Part shown: one piece after another, positions 13,601 to 27,123 of the stretch
How positions within the stretch are numbered: the first letter of the stretch is position 1
Layout: every line of letters begins with the position of its first letter
The notes under the pieces: generated by a model
The model's input: the letters and a program-made list of their open reading frames with translations, nothing else
What the model was told of the DNA's origin: nothing
The model's database searches: none
DNA from: a virus
Reading direction: 5' to 3' (one strand)
Virus record (IMG/VR): IMGVR_UViG_3300042465_003027
Span: 1 to 30,167 of that record
Length of the DNA: 30,167 nt
Made by a program: the position numbers and the translations under genes

Positions 13601-16006
13601 GACGTTCCTGCATATGAGCCCACAGGGCTTTACAGTGGTGACAACAAGTTTATCCGTAACCTCTTTAAATCTTCCGCATCCGGCAACAAGAACATCGACT
13701 TAATGAGCGGTGAAGAAATGCCAGCAAAAATGGGTGAAGCCACCGCGCAGGAACCGGGTTTTGCTAAAATACCAGAGCCTGTTGGCCTTGCTGGTGCGGC
13801 TAAAGCTGGCCTACCAGAATTGCTTAAAATCAAAAAGCCAACGGAATTTGCCAAGCCCGCTGGTCTTGCACCTAAAATGGGCGAACTCCCGACTGGTATT
13901 GCGCAAATTGCGCGCCTCATCCATGCTGGCGAAGGCACTGGCAAGAACCCTTCGTCATCAGCTAAGGGGCCATATCAGTTTATTGACAGCACATTTGTGG
14001 GCGAGTTCCGCAAAAACTATCCTGATCGTGCAAAGGGTATGTCGGATGACAGCATCGTTGCATTGAAGCGTAGCCCAGAGGGTGCATCCATTAGTTTGCA
14101 AATGGGTCCAAAGTTCATTGCAAACAACGCTAAGATAGTTGAGCGGGCTGGATTTGTGCCTGACGCTGGCAACGTGTATCTTGCCCACTTCTTGGGACCA
14201 GATACCGCTGTCAAAGTGCTTCGCGCAGATCCTAACGCGCCAATCAGCCGTTATGTGAGCGAAGACGCTATCAAGGCAAACCCGCCCCTGCAAAAGAACC
14301 CAACCGTTGGTGGCACTATCAACTGGGCGCGTGGCTACATGCAAAAGCAAGCTAACTATCTGGATCGCAAAGGGCGCGCATCAGGTGGCCTTGCTGGCCG
14401 TAATGGTTATGCACTTGATGGTAGTGTTGAAGATGAAAAGAAGGGCTTCCAGCTTTCAGAGCAGCTTTTGCAAGATGCAAACGATTTAGCCGAAACTGAT
14501 AAGCTTGAAAGAAATCTAGACGTTCAAAAAGTTCAACCGGGGCCAGAAACAAAAATTGCAGAAGAGGTTGTCCCCCAACAGGCCCTAGCCGCTGGTGCGC
14601 CAACAGCGATGCCTACTGCTACGCCTGTTACTGATAAGCCAGTGGGCTTGGGTGCTGCTGCACCTGCTGCTGCACCTGCTGCTGCACCTGCACCCAGAGA
14701 CAACAACATCTTCCGGGGTAAATTTATTACGGGTCTGAAAGAGGGTAGGGCAACGTCAATATTGCCACTTCTGTCTGGGATTGCGGCCATGGGCACTGCG
14801 CCGACCCGTAGCCTTGGCGTTGCGCTTGCCGCAGGTGTTGGCGCAGGCGCGCAAGCTGCTCAGGCTCAGCGCGCATTCGGTATCAAGCAGGGTGAATTGA
14901 AGGTTGCTCAGCAGCTTGCTGATGCCCGCACGATGGAAATCACTAAGGGTATTCTGGAAGGCCGGTATGAATTCCTTGAGAATGGTATGGTCAGGGACAC
15001 TTACACAGACACGTTCCTGCCTACCGATCTGGCAACAATTGCCAAGGGGAAGGCTTTTAAAGAAGGTCCTTATGAGGCAATTACTGGAAAGGCGGAAGGT
15101 GCAATTTCCCGCAAGGATTACCTTGAACAATATCCAACAGCGGGAAGCAATCCTCCTGATCTTCCACCCTCTTTCTCATATGAGGTTGACCCCAAGAGTC
15201 CCAACAAAACTATTTTTGCTTTAGCTGAAATGACACCCGGTGTTAGGGATGCGCGGAAATCGCGTGATAAGTCAGAGTACACCATGAATGCGCTTCATAA
15301 AACATTGTCTGATCCCGGCATTGGCCAAAATCGCTTAGCGCAACTTACAAATGCTTATAATCTTTCTGTTGGTGATTATAATCGCGCAAATGAGCAGTGG
15401 TTAAAGGTCCTCACTGACGTTGCGTCTACCCCAATCAAAGCGCTTGAAGCAGGTCAAGCGGCTCAGATTAATGTTAACGCAGAAGCCCTCGGACCACTTA
15501 TTGCTGATGCCCGCACTGCGCTTGCGACGAAGGAAACTATCAAGCAAATCAGGGGTGAAATTGGCGAAGGTGGGCCTTTGGCCCCATTGCAGCAGAACAT
15601 CGGTCTTAGGATGCAGCAAGTTGGCTTTAGTCCAGAATTTGTCAAATCACTTATTGGCCAAGATCCAGCAAGTTTAAATGTGCAGAATTCTTTGGCAAAC
15701 CAATTGACCTTAAATGGCATAGACCCAGCCACCCTTAGGGATGGCGCTGGAACCATTAATGCGCGCAAAGCCGTGGAAGCATTACTGAACAATGTTGATA
15801 AAAGGGCAGATGGCCAAATCGCGGCATTTGACGCAGCTAACACTGCATTCAAGTATGATCCGGTAGGTGCAGACACTCCCGGAAAAAGCATTAACGCTCA
15901 GCGTGGCGAATATGATGCCAAGTATCTAAGGGAGCAGCCAAAGCCGGGAACCTATCCAAAGGGAACGGTTTATTACGTTGGTGGAAAGCGGTTTGTAGTT
16001 AATTAG
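10694..16006 (+). CDS. Giant internal virion protein with two S74 modules and a lysozyme-like domain
   Basis: A 1770-residue ejection-type protein. Residues 1-500 are Gln/Ala/Gly-rich, with seven 18-residue repeats of the type LGQQ-F-GQG (327-452). Residues 529-592 and 886-949 are two S74 intramolecular-chaperone-like modules (SDERLKENI and SDKRMKENI). A lysozyme/transglycosylase-like domain lies near 1070-1220: Glu1080 in HAGEGTG, then SAKGPYQFIDSTF and YLAHFLGP. A glycine-rich hydrophobic stretch near 1348-1390 could enter the membrane. By analogy with T7 gp16, it would be ejected to digest peptidoglycan and line a DNA channel. S74 modules are normally at the C-terminus of fibres, so their internal position is odd. 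Confidence 0.8.
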   Translation: MGGKTSKSTQAISVPPEVLARYNAVNARADTVTNKPYQYYTGQFVAPLTATQQAGISNTNAAAGIAQPYFGAATGQLMGAQQAAMPYYQGATEQLGQGINAGQQLAGQSYNTLSGAQNIGNQLAGQSLETLGAAQNQAGGIQQTALNNFNAAYAGAQPYNQVAGNLYGQGLEQGRDFTGQSAYGTQQALAGAQPYQGVATQYMGSGAQAVNPNDLGADQINKYMSPYLSTVLQGTAGLLNQQNQQQQSGQMGNAIRSGAFGGDRSGIAAANLNQQQNLANSKIFSDLLNQGFGQALGTAQQQQQLGLGAQQANRAAQQQASQQALAIGQQGFGQGLSAAQQQAALGQQLFGMGSTTGQNAAALGQQVYGQGTGTAAQQAAMGQQIFGQGATAAAQQAALGQQQFGQGATTAAQQAALGQQQFGQGTAASQQAAALGQGLYGMGANTSSQLAGLGTGAQGAALSGAGAQLAAGQAEQATQQAENTAKYNEFLQAQSLPYQQLKLASDIALGTGTASGSTTTTAQPGGFFSDERLKENIKAVGKTFDGQTIHSYNYKGDPRTQIGLIAQEVQKHHPEAVGLAGGYKTVDYDKATEDASDRGHMASGGLASAGGSVMPYNAGQGFADGGFAGYDPAVMQQMLAAQQAMYAPLSSNNMYAGGPNAGGGLVPQSELTARQLMMPAELARQATGAEQANSIANLGKTVGELGGEVGAWDWGGEEAKKKDKTPVPTTAAASAPAATGVVPPEPVDTTPPTPEELLERQGRALGGGIPYSGQGLDIPESGLAAGSGSPMTASALQAQQSGIQKLGDTADTGMKLFKAGKKLSKLFADGGGIPYAGQGLDIPDEDDSSKTYQLPTAGDMPDKPKSGFSKAVKAAGTVAKLAAMFSDKRMKENIKPIGKLFDGQIVHSYNYKGDPRTQIGLIAQEVEGHKPHAVGSAGKYKTVDYAKATSGAAKRGHFAVGGMPEEEMEDVPAYEPTGLYSGDNKFIRNLFKSSASGNKNIDLMSGEEMPAKMGEATAQEPGFAKIPEPVGLAGAAKAGLPELLKIKKPTEFAKPAGLAPKMGELPTGIAQIARLIHAGEGTGKNPSSSAKGPYQFIDSTFVGEFRKNYPDRAKGMSDDSIVALKRSPEGASISLQMGPKFIANNAKIVERAGFVPDAGNVYLAHFLGPDTAVKVLRADPNAPISRYVSEDAIKANPPLQKNPTVGGTINWARGYMQKQANYLDRKGRASGGLAGRNGYALDGSVEDEKKGFQLSEQLLQDANDLAETDKLERNLDVQKVQPGPETKIAEEVVPQQALAAGAPTAMPTATPVTDKPVGLGAAAPAAAPAAAPAPRDNNIFRGKFITGLKEGRATSILPLLSGIAAMGTAPTRSLGVALAAGVGAGAQAAQAQRAFGIKQGELKVAQQLADARTMEITKGILEGRYEFLENGMVRDTYTDTFLPTDLATIAKGKAFKEGPYEAITGKAEGAISRKDYLEQYPTAGSNPPDLPPSFSYEVDPKSPNKTIFALAEMTPGVRDARKSRDKSEYTMNALHKTLSDPGIGQNRLAQLTNAYNLSVGDYNRANEQWLKVLTDVASTPIKALEAGQAAQINVNAEALGPLIADARTALATKETIKQIRGEIGEGGPLAPLQQNIGLRMQQVGFSPEFVKSLIGQDPASLNVQNSLANQLTLNGIDPATLRDGAGTINARKAVEALLNNVDKRADGQIAAFDAANTAFKYDPVGADTPGKSINAQRGEYDAKYLREQPKPGTYPKGTVYYVGGKRFVVN
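11672..12049 (+). repeat. Seven tandem 54-bp coding repeats (Gln-rich)
   Basis: Seven in-frame units of exactly 18 codons start at 11672, 11726, 11780, 11834, 11888, 11942 and 11996. Their leading residues are IGQQGF, LGQQLF, LGQQVY, MGQQIF, LGQQQF, LGQQQF and LGQGLY, followed by G-Q/M-G and an Ala/Gln run. The units lie in the N-terminal third of the giant virion protein. The constant 18-residue period suggests a helical solenoid or extended fibrous segment. Confidence 0.85.
12278..12469 (+). repeat. First internal S74 chaperone-like module (coding duplication)
   Basis: Codons 529-592 of the giant virion protein. The module opens with SDERLKENI, contains YNYKGDPRTQIGLIAQEV and ends with KTVDYDKAT. 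Its length is exactly the same 64 codons as the second module at 13349, and I count 50 of 64 residues identical. Ser529 and Lys534 of the S-D-x-R-L-K motif, associated with autocleavage in peptidase S74, are present. Confidence 0.85.
13349..13540 (+). repeat. Second internal S74 chaperone-like module (coding duplication)
   Basis: Codons 886-949 of the giant virion protein, opening with SDKRMKENI and ending with KTVDYAKAT. It matches the first module over all 64 codons without gaps. The 20 residues starting at HSYNYKGD are identical, although many codons differ at third positions, so the duplication is not recent. Confidence 0.85.
14654..14689 (+). repeat. Three 12-bp repeats encoding Ala-Ala-Ala-Pro
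   Basis: GCTGCTGCACCT occurs three times without change within the giant virion protein, encoding an Ala/Pro linker just before the hydrophobic stretch near residue 1348. Exact short repeats like this are prone to slippage, so linker length may vary between strains. Confidence 0.9.
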
Positions 16007-21828: not shown

Positions 21829-21998
21829 TGGCAGGAGATCTCTCCACCGTTGAACTGATTGGCCAGCTTTGGCCTATCGTATTGGCGTTCATTACGCTGA
21901 CCATCATCCTTGCTAAGATGGATGTGCGTCTTGCTGTGGTTGAGGAAAAGATCAAAACGCTCTTTGAGTTATGGAATAATCGGAAGGACGATAAATGA
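21828..21998 (+). CDS. Small single-span membrane protein next to endolysin (holin candidate)
   Basis: A 56-residue protein with one transmembrane segment (GQLWPIVLAFITLTIILA, about 12-29) and a charged helical C-terminus (VVEEKIKTLFELWNNRKDDK). It starts in a TAATG overlap with paralogue B and ends in an ATGA overlap with the endolysin, so translation is likely coupled. Its size, single span and direct contact with the endolysin gene make it the best candidate for the holin, although no family motif proves this. Confidence 0.7.
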   Translation: MAGDLSTVELIGQLWPIVLAFITLTIILAKMDVRLAVVEEKIKTLFELWNNRKDDK

Positions 21999-22606
21999 GC
22001 CTAATTAACCTTCAACAGAAAATAGGAGTAACCGCAGATGGCGCATTCGGTCCGGGAACATTTAAAAAGGCTGCGGCTTTCTATAAATTATCGCCAGATA
22101 GGGCAGCGCATTTCTTTGCTCAAACAGCACATGAATCTGGCGGCTTCAAAGCCTTCAGCGAAAACCTCAACTACGGAGCCAAAGGGCTTCGCGGCATCTT
22201 TGGCAAATATTTCCCGACTGACGCGCTGGCTAAAGCGTATGAACGTCAACCGCAAAAAATAGCCAATCGTGTCTACGCCAACCGCATGGGCAATGGCCCT
22301 GAGGGCAGCGGGGATGGGTGGAAATTCCGAGGCCGGGGTGCGCTCCAATTAACAGGAAAATTTTCGTATCAGGCATTTGCTGATTATATTGGCCGTCCTG
22401 ACATCATGACAAACCCAGACCTTGTGGCAACCGAACTGTGCTTTGAAAGCGCGTTGTGGTTCTTTGACAAGAACAAGCTATGGGGCATCTGCGACCAAGG
22501 CACAGGCGAAGGCGCGATCCTTGCCCTGACAAAGCGCATCAATGGCGGAACGCATGGCCTTGATGACCGCCGCCTAAAGACCAAGAAGTACGCAACATGG
22601 CTTTAA
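21995..22606 (+). CDS. Endolysin, GH19 chitinase-like muramidase
   Basis: A 203-residue lysis enzyme. Residues 3-30 look like a short peptidoglycan-binding repeat (LQQKIGVTADGAFGPGTFKKA). The GH19 domain follows, with catalytic Glu47 in TAHESGGF and probably Glu56 in FSENLNYG. The ANRMGNG loop, the FRGRGALQLTGKFSY motif (111-125) and a C-terminal INGGTHGLDDR are also typical. It cuts glycan strands of peptidoglycan. There is no signal peptide, so it needs a holin to reach the periplasm. It overlaps the holin candidate and the inner spanin gene. Confidence 0.9.
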   Translation: MSLINLQQKIGVTADGAFGPGTFKKAAAFYKLSPDRAAHFFAQTAHESGGFKAFSENLNYGAKGLRGIFGKYFPTDALAKAYERQPQKIANRVYANRMGNGPEGSGDGWKFRGRGALQLTGKFSYQAFADYIGRPDIMTNPDLVATELCFESALWFFDKNKLWGICDQGTGEGAILALTKRINGGTHGLDDRRLKTKKYATWL

Positions 22607-23001
22607 TCAATCCAGTTATGATATACGGATTAGCAGGCGCTTTGCTTATTGGCGCTGCTTCTGGGTATAAAGTCCGTGACTGGCAGTGCGATGCAGCTTT
22701 TGCAAAGGCGTTGGAGAAGGCTGAAAAGCTGCGTGTCAAAAAACAAGAGGTGGTAGATGATGTCTCAAAAACCTACGAATCCGAACGAGATCAAGCCAAT
22801 GTCGTGGCAACCGAACGTACCAACACCATACGCGAAATATATAAAACGGCTCCTGCCGTTCCTGTTGATTGCGCTGGTTCTGATGCTTTGCGCAGGGTGC
22901 TCGAAAGCGGTGTCAGTGACGCCAATGCCGCTGCCACCGGCAAACCTAGCGGCGAAGTGCCCAAATCTTCAGAACCCCCCAGTGGTAATGATCGACCCTG
23001 A
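22597..23001 (+). CDS. Inner-membrane spanin (Rz-like)
   Basis: A 134-residue protein with an N-terminal membrane anchor (MIYGLAGALLIGAASGY, about 8-24) and a periplasmic coiled coil (AFAKALEKAEKLRVKKQEVVDDVSKTYESERDQANVV). A loop (PAVPVDCAGSDALRRVLESGV) and a Ser/Pro-rich tail follow. This is the i-spanin layout: it joins the outer-membrane partner to fuse the two membranes in the last lysis step. It overlaps the endolysin end by 10 bases and contains most of the o-spanin gene in another frame, as in lambda Rz/Rz1. Confidence 0.8.
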   Translation: MALINPVMIYGLAGALLIGAASGYKVRDWQCDAAFAKALEKAEKLRVKKQEVVDDVSKTYESERDQANVVATERTNTIREIYKTAPAVPVDCAGSDALRRVLESGVSDANAAATGKPSGEVPKSSEPPSGNDRP

Positions 23002-23104
23002 GCGGGCGCTTTGGGAAGCGGATGTCCTTGCAAAGTACATAGATTGCGCAACCAAGCATCGCTTGACTGTTCAAGCATGGGTTGACGCAGTAGCCGTAAA
23101 GTAG
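22757..23104 (+). CDS. Outer-membrane spanin lipoprotein (Rz1-like)
   Basis: A 115-residue lipoprotein read in the +1 frame of the inner spanin gene. A basic region (YAKYIKRL) precedes the hydrophobic LPFLLIALVLML and lipobox LCAGC, with acylated Cys48 followed by Ser, which favours the outer membrane. The mature part is Pro-rich at its start (TPMPLPPANLA). I keep the ATG at 22757 because GAGG lies 6 bases upstream; the ATG at 22799 would give a shorter signal. The gene runs 103 bases beyond the inner spanin stop. Confidence 0.8.
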   Translation: MMSQKPTNPNEIKPMSWQPNVPTPYAKYIKRLLPFLLIALVLMLCAGCSKAVSVTPMPLPPANLAAKCPNLQNPPVVMIDPERALWEADVLAKYIDCATKHRLTVQAWVDAVAVK

Positions 23105-24472: not shown

Positions 24473-25231
24473 TTATATGCCCCAGATCTCAAACGCCTGC
24501 TGGCGCGAAACTGGGTCATTGAAATAGAAACTGTCTGTATCTGGAACGACAAACGATGCCAGTTCCATAGGATCATCGCTGAGCGCCAAGAAGCGCTGTA
24601 TGGTAAGTCCAATCTTGCCAAGCGCTTCTACATGCTCACGGGCGTTTTCAAGGGCGTATGTAGCATGTTTCTTAGACGTTATGTATGTCACCCGTGCAGA
24701 CAGGTTATCACCCCTTGCAGCGCGATACAGGGCCACCTGACGTGCATGCGGCTGGCTGATCTTGCTAGGGAGCGCGTGGGTGGTCTTTAGGTCGGTCAGC
24801 ATGCCATGCTGCTCCCACTCAAAGTCGTAATAGCCAATCATGGGGACAAGCAGGCCCTCAATGTCTAAGCTAACGCTACCCTGAGCGGATGACGGTGTGC
24901 CGTAGCCGCGCAATTCGCGCAGACCCATCTCCACCATGTCTGGAATCGCTTTGCGCTCTTTATCGACCTTGTCGCCGCTAATAAACGATGCCAGCGTGTT
25001 AAACTTGTCCAGTGCGATCTTGGTGCAATCCACTAAGGGGGCGTTAAGGTTAAAGAGCCCATGGGCAACACCGTCCTCAACAGCCGTACCGCGATAAGCA
25101 GCAGGGCCCACAGATGATGTTTTCTTCAAGCATTTGTTCATGACGAAGGTGGCCAAGGACGATGTGAATAGGTTGCATGTCGATGGTGACAGATGCTGGA
25201 TATTATGCACTTCAAACGGATTGCTCATCAT
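24473..25231 (-). CDS. PD-(D/E)XK family exonuclease (RecB/Cas4-like)
   Basis: A 252-residue nuclease with the PDDEXK_1 motifs in order: RGTAVEDGVAHG (Glu52, His57), the metal-binding GYYDF (Asp136), DLKTT (Asp147 and Lys149) and the QVALY helix (Gln165). Such phage enzymes resect DNA ends for recombination or replication. Two ATGs (25231 and 25228) are possible; 25231 overlaps the stop of the upstream gene. It is followed after 66 bases by the ssDNA-binding-like gene, as in other phage recombination modules. Confidence 0.85.
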   Translation of the reverse strand: MMSNPFEVHNIQHLSPSTCNLFTSSLATFVMNKCLKKTSSVGPAAYRGTAVEDGVAHGLFNLNAPLVDCTKIALDKFNTLASFISGDKVDKERKAIPDMVEMGLRELRGYGTPSSAQGSVSLDIEGLLVPMIGYYDFEWEQHGMLTDLKTTHALPSKISQPHARQVALYRAARGDNLSARVTYITSKKHATYALENAREHVEALGKIGLTIQRFLALSDDPMELASFVVPDTDSFYFNDPVSRQQAFEIWGI

Positions 25232-25416
25232 TCTTCCTCAATGGTGATACGATATGACTGACCGTTGCGGTCAACAATCCGCAGCGATGAAACCGCTGAT
25301 TGCAGGTCATTTGTTACCTCCCGTGGTAGGGAAAGCAAGCCCTCAGGATCTGCAAAAGAAAACTGCTGTGCGATGCGGTGGGTTATATATTCCTGCATTT
25401 TTGAATGTATTTGCAT
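25228..25416 (-). CDS. Small protein at head of minus-strand early operon
   Basis: A 62-residue protein: helical N-terminus (SKMQEYITHRIAQQF), middle (LLSLPREVTNDLQSAVSSLRI) and acidic end (RITIEEE). No known motif. It is the first gene after the leftward promoter, about 31 bases from the predicted start of transcription, with GGAAA as a weak Shine-Dalgarno sequence. Its stop overlaps the exonuclease start. Confidence 0.65.
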   Translation of the reverse strand: MQIHSKMQEYITHRIAQQFSFADPEGLLSLPREVTNDLQSAVSSLRIVDRNGQSYRITIEEE

Positions 25417-25451: not shown

Positions 25452-25464
25452 GGACAGTACGCCC
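25452..25464. promoter_or_regulatory. Left operator-like site
   Basis: GGGCGTACTGTCC on the minus strand. It fits the shared pattern GGRC-N5-GYCC seen in all three sites and overlaps the leftward -10. Binding here should block leftward transcription. Confidence 0.55.
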
Positions 25465-25482
25465 GCAGGTAAAATACGTCAA
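25454..25482 (-). promoter_or_regulatory. Leftward early promoter
   Basis: On the minus strand, TTGACG (25482-25477) is followed by a 17-base spacer and TACTGT (25459-25454). Transcription would start near 25447, giving a leader of about 31 bases before the first leftward gene. The -10 lies inside the left operator-like site. Confidence 0.6.
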
Positions 25483-25496
25483 CCCACAAAATAATG

Positions 25497-25526
25497 TTGA
25501 CATCACGGGCACACTGCCCGTACCTA
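25497..25526 (+). promoter_or_regulatory. Rightward early promoter
   Basis: TTGACA (25497-25502), an 18-base spacer and TACCTA (25521-25526). The promoter at 25768 has the same TTGACATCA start, the same spacing and the same TACCT. The leader to the ATG at 25565 is about 32 bases, with GGAG at 25554. Confidence 0.65.
25505..25521. promoter_or_regulatory. Right operator: perfect 7-bp inverted repeat
   Basis: ACGGGCA-cac-TGCCCGT is a perfect palindrome of 17 bases placed between the -35 and -10 of the rightward promoter. Its core GGGCACACTGCCC (25507-25519) shares the GGRC-N5-GYCC pattern with the other two sites. Classical position for repression. Confidence 0.75.
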
Positions 25527-25564
25527 ATCAGCCCTAATGATAATTAAATCAGTGGAGATAAATT

Positions 25565-25771
25565 ATGGATGATGCGCAAGTATATGAAATCATTAAGAGA
25601 TCGCAACGTGCGTTTAAGCGCGCAGATAAAATAGCGCAGGAAAAGCGCGAAATTGAAAATGAAATTCGGGATTTGTGCCGCGAATATGCTGAAGCTTGCC
25701 GTGTATGGAACTGGCAACCTCATATGCTGCGTCAGGCAGTCGATGCCCGCATGGGCAAAAAGGCCGCTTGA
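25565..25771 (+). CDS. Small helical early protein
   Basis: A 68-residue charged, mostly helical protein (QVYEIIKRSQRAFKRADKIAQEKREIENEIRDL, shown by its core, then CREYAEACRVW). It is the first gene of the rightward early operon, with GGAG seven bases before the ATG. Small Lys/Arg/Glu-rich early proteins often act on host or phage regulators, but nothing specific can be read here. The second rightward promoter starts inside its last codons. Confidence 0.65.
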   Translation: MDDAQVYEIIKRSQRAFKRADKIAQEKREIENEIRDLCREYAEACRVWNWQPHMLRQAVDARMGKKAA

Positions 25772-25797
25772 CATCATAGGACGTGCCGCCCTACCTT
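25768..25797 (+). promoter_or_regulatory. Second rightward promoter, before the XRE gene
   Basis: TTGACA (25768-25773), an 18-base spacer and TACCTT (25792-25797). It shares TTGACATCA and TACCT at identical spacing with the promoter at 25497. Predicted transcription start near 25804 leaves a 27-base leader with GGAG before the ATG at 25831. Confidence 0.6.
25779..25791. promoter_or_regulatory. Third operator-like site
   Basis: GGACGTGCCGCCC lies between the -35 and -10 of the XRE promoter and fits GGRC-N5-GYCC. The differences from the other two sites are all transitions. This suggests that the XRE protein represses its own gene. Confidence 0.5.
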
Positions 25798-25830: not shown

Positions 25831-26040
25831 ATGAAGCAGACCAAAGAAGATTTTGCACTGGCGCGGGGTTCGTTGAACATGACAACCACGCAAATGGCTA
25901 GGGCATTGCGCATGGGGATAGGTTCAGACCGCACGATCAGGCGCTATGAAAGTGGTGAGTGCCCTGTGCCGGGACCAACGTCAGTTGCGGTGGAAGCCCT
26001 GCTGACAGGGTTTAGGCCGGAGGGGTTTGAGGAAGGTTAG
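25831..26040 (+). CDS. XRE/Cro-CI-type helix-turn-helix regulator
   Basis: A 69-residue DNA-binding protein with an HTH: ALARGSLNMTTTQMARALRMG (core LNMTTTQMARAL) as the first helices, then SDRTIRRYESGECPVPGP as the recognition helix and turn. RRYESG and VPGP are typical of this group. Small size and lack of a dimerisation domain resemble Cro. I chose the ATG at 25831 because of GGAG 6 bases upstream and the predicted promoter; the frame is open back to 25783. It probably binds the three operator-like sites nearby. Confidence 0.85.
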   Translation: MKQTKEDFALARGSLNMTTTQMARALRMGIGSDRTIRRYESGECPVPGPTSVAVEALLTGFRPEGFEEG

Positions 26041-26698: not shown

Positions 26699-26887
26699 AT
26701 GAAGGATAAATACGTTTACCCACACGTTTCAGACACAGGCCCACGGCCCGGAATGGAACTGCGCGACTGGTTTGCAGGCATGGTTTTGCAATCAGCCTGT
26801 CGTGATAATTGGCCGCAAGATGCGGCCCTGTCGGCATACGAATATGCTGATGCAATGATGGAAATCCGTAATGAGGAAAAGAACTAA
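26699..26887 (+). CDS. Small conserved phage protein
   Basis: A 62-residue protein. [16 protein letters not shown] and [15 protein letters not shown] are a pattern found in many phage and prophage small proteins, where the helix ends in A-D-A-M-L/M. Function unknown. AGAGG lies 8 bases before the ATG at 26699; the GTG at 26693 is less likely. Its stop overlaps the GapR start (TAATG). Confidence 0.7.
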
Positions 26888-27123
26888 TGACTTACGCAAT
26901 CACAGCAGAGCAACTTCGCGTATTTATTGAGCGCATTGAGCGCCAAGAGGAAGAGAAAAAGCAGATCTCTGATTACATCCGCGACGTTTACAGTGAAGCG
27001 AAGGGTCAGGGTTATGACACCAAGATCCTGAAGCAGATCATTCGCCTGCGCCGCATGGAAAAGGATGCGCGTGACGAAGAGGAAGCGGTTCTCGACACAT
27101 ACAAAAAGGCCCTTGGGCTTTAG
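26887..27123 (+). CDS. gapR: GapR-like nucleoid-associated protein (DUF2312)
   Basis: A 78-residue protein with the full DUF2312 pattern: [39 protein letters not shown] and a C-terminal helix ending [10 protein letters not shown]. Cellular GapR in Alphaproteobacteria is a tetrameric clamp that binds overtwisted DNA and stimulates topoisomerases during replication. A phage copy in a replication operon might handle supercoils ahead of phage forks or displace the host protein; that part is inference. It is of normal family length. Confidence 0.9.

Follow-up and report, generated by a model that had tools for sequence, protein, structure and literature searches.

Three promoters of a divergent region each contain a 13-bp site

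How are the divergent gene sets of this virus controlled? The window, i.e. the whole 30,167-bp virus record analysed here, apparently belongs to a tailed phage, whose relatives have longer contigs reaching 55-61 kb. Its leftward and rightward gene sets part company at 25.45-25.80 kb. A preliminary description of the sequence had placed an undescribed, autoregulated divergent early switch at this point, governed by a 69-residue XRE protein acting on an operator-like site, GGRC-N5-GYCC, in three promoters.

Three sigma-70-like promoters are readable in the region, each with one 13-bp site, and a pattern scan recovered all three of the 13-mers that had been described. The leftward promoter has a -35 candidate TTGACG (25477..25482, minus strand) and, at a spacing of 17, a -10 candidate TACTGT (25454..25459, minus strand), both read from the sequence and kept in relatives, the latter as TAYTGT. 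The -10 lies inside the putative operator O_L, GGGCGTACTGTCC (25452..25464, minus strand), which therefore covers it. In the rightward promoter, the -35 candidate TTGACA (25497..25502, plus strand; kept in relatives) and the -10 candidate TACCTA (25521..25526, plus strand) were likewise read from the sequence, and the spacer between them is occupied by the putative operator O_R, GGGCACACTGCCC (25507..25519, plus strand), which is conserved in relatives with a changed centre. The XRE promoter consists of a -35 candidate TTGACA (25768..25773, plus strand; kept in relatives), a -10 candidate TACCTT (25792..25797, plus strand) and, filling the spacer, the putative operator O_X, GGACGTGCCGCCC (25779..25791, plus strand), which is conserved in close relatives that possess gene 2, the first rightward gene. 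Both rightward promoters share TTGACATCA and an 18-bp spacing from TTGACA to TACCT (25503-25520 and 25774-25791), as had been reported. In the leftward site, the T of GTCC is also the final T of the -10, and this may be why that arm reads GTCC and not GCCC.

The outer half-sites are indeed palindromic, and the symmetry extends by one further pair (R at position 5, Y at position 9). The three copies in the window do differ from one another by transitions alone; this carries no meaning, since the centres in relatives show transversions.

Behind O_L lie a 62-aa gene with no assigned function (25228..25416, minus strand) and a 252-aa gene (24473..25231, minus strand) that matches phrog_10230 (unknown function). 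Gene 2 (25565..25771, plus strand) encodes 68 aa, has no assigned function, and its stop codon falls within TTGACA of the XRE promoter. Its Pfam and PHROG matches were weak and unconvincing, and its identification as a remote GapR homologue was unsupported (hhalign E=0.079). Further to the right are the genes for the 69-aa XRE/Cro-type helix-turn-helix (HTH) protein, the proposed repressor (25831..26040, plus strand; ATG start with GGAG upstream), and for a phage-encoded GapR-like DNA-binding protein (26887-27123, plus strand; PF10073, E=1.4e-32). The PF10073 family is known from alphaproteobacteria and, going by this gene alone, our guess is that the host may be an alphaproteobacterium. An XRE profile search of genome_contigs gave no relative, so neither host nor prophage was identified in this way. 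A helicase search of the same set gave just four metagenome-assembled contigs (52-53%); these are possibly misbinned phage. Elsewhere in the window, translations read by eye included a likely GH19-type endolysin (21995-22606, plus strand), followed by overlapping frames (22597-23001 and 22757-23104, plus strand) that resemble an Rz/Rz1 spanin pair.

The sites are clustered beyond chance and conserved in relatives

The preliminary description had proposed a scan of the whole genome for GGRC-N5-GYCC. Across the window, 4 matches were found against 2.1 expected, and at least 4 occurred in 10 of 100 shuffles; the count by itself is weak, but the clustering of the three sites is not due to chance: when the window was dinucleotide-shuffled 200 times, three sites never fell within 345 bp. 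The fourth match, GGGCCTTTGGCCC at 15572, does not fit the refined motif GGRCR-N3-YGYCC obtained from relatives, which thus excludes the sole other match in the window.

Relatives were gathered with the helicase, XRE and gene 2 as queries. About 20 related contigs carry XRE at 84-100% identity, and most of them have the three sites in the same places, with constant arms and altered centres. The distance between O_L and O_R was 54-55 bp in 20/20 stretches in which both were found, some of these stretches being near-identical. Contigs that lack gene 2 lack the third site as well, and in them XRE follows the rightward promoter. More distant relatives (L119, L120 and L023-L025) have a degenerate site in the XRE promoter itself, e.g. 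GGGCGTAGAACCC.

A search pattern that fixed the arms and left positions 5 and 9 free yielded 58 distinct promoter-embedded sites. Position 5 was R and position 9 was Y in 52 of them, and the motif was therefore sharpened to GGRCR-N3-YGYCC. These 58 promoters have TTGACA or a similar hexamer, 3-5 bp and then the site, with TA next in 44/58, so that the site fills the spacer. One relative, G001, has 6 promoter-embedded sites against a shuffle mean of 0.0. The observation of three sites thus stands, and is stronger than could be seen from the sequence of the window by itself.

There was no DNA match to annotated phage genomes, nor a close XRE relative in them, and for this reason, within the reach of the tools, the word 'undescribed' seems fair for this phage group. 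Literature searches for the string GGGC-N5-GCCC and for phiC31-type conserved inverted repeats found nothing.

Relatives have further site-bearing promoters

In relatives, the putative site set exceeds three promoters. The same combination of promoter and site recurs 4-10 kb further downstream, mostly 32-73 bp ahead of start codons with a ribosome-binding site; the window stops short of this part of the genome. In G001, such promoters precede a 106-aa gene, the gene for ArdC (PF08401 and PF18818), a 77-aa gene and a 66-aa gene, and in G012 ArdC is again found behind the site, with the promoter arranged differently. The ArdC domain was found in 6/6 related contigs searched; in L122, this ArdC-type anti-restriction gene is located at 15098-15952 (minus strand).

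The putative operator tracks the regulator gene

XRE-bearing phages have 66 promoter-embedded GGRC sites in 439 kb, their XRE-less relatives 3 in 880 kb. For GACA-N3-TGTC, the corresponding numbers were 1 in 439 kb with XRE and 27 in 880 kb without. The helicase relatives mostly carry XRE or, at the same place, a gene of a different small HTH family (L080 7347-7541, L077 4095-4292 and 40 other loci); 19 loci carry neither, some of them being cut short. A GGRC site lies upstream in 19/19 XRE loci and GACA-N3-TGTC in 0/19, and the loci with the other HTH gene have GACA-N3-TGTC, its putative operator, in 26/42 and the GGRC site in 1/42 (Fisher p ~7e-15, kinship ignored). By helicase identity the phages with XRE and those with the other HTH gene are largely separate groups, so the exchange of regulator and operator may reflect few events; given these separate lineages and overlapping or near-identical loci, the counts do not represent independent events.

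The 16/42 other-HTH loci without GACA-N3-TGTC may have a further variant. In two XRE-less relatives, L051 and L052, the sequence TTTACC-TGATA-GGGCGTGATGTCC may be a promoter-embedded site that occurs without an XRE gene. XRE-less G021 has two strict sites spaced 99 bp apart, which resembles the second-cluster pair seen in the XRE phages; this pair lacks a -35 and looks like chance.

XRE homologues in other locus layouts offer more independent support. In L159 and L160-L162 (57-66% identity), the only strict site of the stretch lies in XRE's own promoter. In L169 and L167, whose XRE is 41-44% identical, the spacer of an upstream promoter contains GGGC-N5-GCCC. The XRE of L105 is 45% identical and has a changed recognition helix; no such site is present at the L105 promoter.

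XRE is predicted to have the fold of small repressors

XRE is made up of one 69-aa HTH domain with a fold of the lambda-repressor type, as in XRE/Cro-CI-type HTH proteins. It matched phrog_14076 'transcriptional regulator' (E=9.8e-7), and a match to Pfam HTH_31 (E=2.5e-4) fell under the curated cut-off. The structure model (pLDDT 90.6) has helices at 5-14, 19-25, 33-41 and 48-58. Its fold matches were HigA2, Aca2, Aca10 (rmsd 1.2 over 56), MqsA and Aca1, with P22 c2 lower and 434 Cro also present; the Foldseek E-values were weak, the best being 0.027. No solved Aca chain was matched in sequence by the A1 profile at E up to 1. The model comes closest to promoter-bound autorepressors.

XRE as a probable autorepressor of early promoters

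We consider it highly probable that XRE, with its 69 aa, acts as an autorepressor of Cro/Aca size and damps a set of early promoters via GGRCR-N3-YGYCC. The sites could otherwise be bound by a second small HTH protein or a host factor, with XRE doing something else. A gene for such an HTH protein is located in the right arm of relatives (L122 13938-14171, minus strand), near site-bearing promoters, and its product also matches phrog_14076 (E=0.001). This second gene, however, occurs in XRE-bearing and XRE-less relatives alike, and the promoter-embedded site is absent from the XRE-less right arms examined, which makes it the weaker candidate. XRE homologues in another layout retain the site in their own promoter, and a host factor should not track the XRE gene. 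We therefore regard binding by another protein as improbable and XRE as the best candidate, judged by these comparisons, to bind the sites. It is hardly conceivable that the three sites are a functionless product of chance or composition: a plain window count of just 4 versus 2.1 would agree with this, but the shuffled windows, the conservation of the arms while the centres change, and the excess of promoter-embedded sites all contradict it.

XRE might also bind the sites and activate from the spacer in the manner of MerR, as in most promoters the site sits between -35 and -10. MerR promoters have a spacer stretched to 19-20, whereas the spacers seen here are a normal 17-18 bp, and the leftward site covers the -10. 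Moreover, the predicted fold of XRE is of the Cro/Aca kind, and in Aca systems an inverted repeat inside the core promoter of their own operon goes with repression (PMC9410906). Activation by XRE is in our view very improbable.

For XRE as an autorepressor, we infer binding, dimerisation, repressive effect and timing as follows. During infection, host RNA polymerase would transcribe from the TTGACA-type promoters in both directions. Leftward transcripts would cover the 62-aa gene, the 252-aa gene and on, and rightward transcripts the 68-aa gene, XRE, the GapR-like protein, a RuvC-like protein and a primase/helicase. XRE, made from two early promoters, would build up, and its dimer would bind GGRCR-N3-YGYCC. 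Sitting in the -35/-10 spacer or over the -10, the bound dimer would block the polymerase. The XRE gene itself and the divergent operons would be turned down, as would further promoters, including that of ArdC, in relatives with longer contigs. The likeness to Aca proteins suggests an early burst, followed by shut-off as XRE accumulates.

Likeness to known systems

Aca1, Aca2 and Aca10 are like XRE in that they are small HTH proteins with an inverted repeat in the core promoter of their own operon, and in their fold. O_R and O_X are positioned accordingly, between -35 and -10, and a further Aca-like trait is the presence of an anti-restriction gene, that for ArdC, downstream of the same putative operator in G001 and G012. 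Unlike in Aca systems, no known anti-CRISPR gene was recognised near XRE among the Pfam and PHROG matches of gene 2, and relatives bear the site at several promoters, not at one operon. The Cro-type repressors of lambda, P22, 434 and PY54 are also small HTH proteins encoded by one member of a divergent pair of early operons, and operators are present in both divergent promoters and in the regulator's own. The lambda operator is three-site, whereas the XRE phage has one site per promoter; nor was an opposing CI-type repressor recognised or an integrase found. In cluster A mycobacteriophages (L5, TipsytheTRex), one regulator is associated with many 13-bp stoperators throughout the genome, and repressor and motif vary together between phage groups (PMC6550527, PMC9283540), features that the XRE phages appear to share. 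Cluster A stoperators are, however, asymmetric, and their repressor contains two domains that bind DNA (PMC9283540); the site of the XRE phages is palindromic and promoter-embedded, and their protein is a single 69-aa HTH domain.

No gene in the divergent operons was recognisable as a second, opposing repressor. A search of 5-6 relatives' contigs (42-61 kb) for integrases of the tyrosine or serine type, or resolvases, gave none over the cut-off. These contigs are possibly incomplete, so this absence argues only weakly for a lytic life. In G001, the gene 2 stretch matched Phage_integrase (E=6e-4), but this fell below the cut-off and was taken as chance. As neither an opposing repressor nor an integrase was found, a bistable switch is not supported. 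Comparative evidence thus bears out one part of the preliminary description, a divergent, probably autoregulated early region with an operator that tracks the 69-aa XRE gene, but lends no support to a 'switch' of the CI/Cro type. Autoregulated divergent early control by XRE appears well supported.

Implications for the phage group

On balance, we lean towards a phage-wide early regulon under one Cro-sized autorepressor, with no recognised lysogeny genes, in which regulator and operator may be exchanged as a unit and the operator would mark early, possibly anti-defence genes (ArdC and several small genes of unassigned function). The sequence rule TTGACA, 3-5 bp, GGRCR-N3-YGYCC, TA would predict the regulated promoters of an uncultivated phage group, together with their likely regulator. 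In relatives, it flags ArdC and a handful of small unassigned genes as co-regulated, making them candidates for takeover or anti-defence functions. Otherwise related phages in which the small HTH gene and the operator differ together at one place would offer a natural experiment on changes in repressor specificity.
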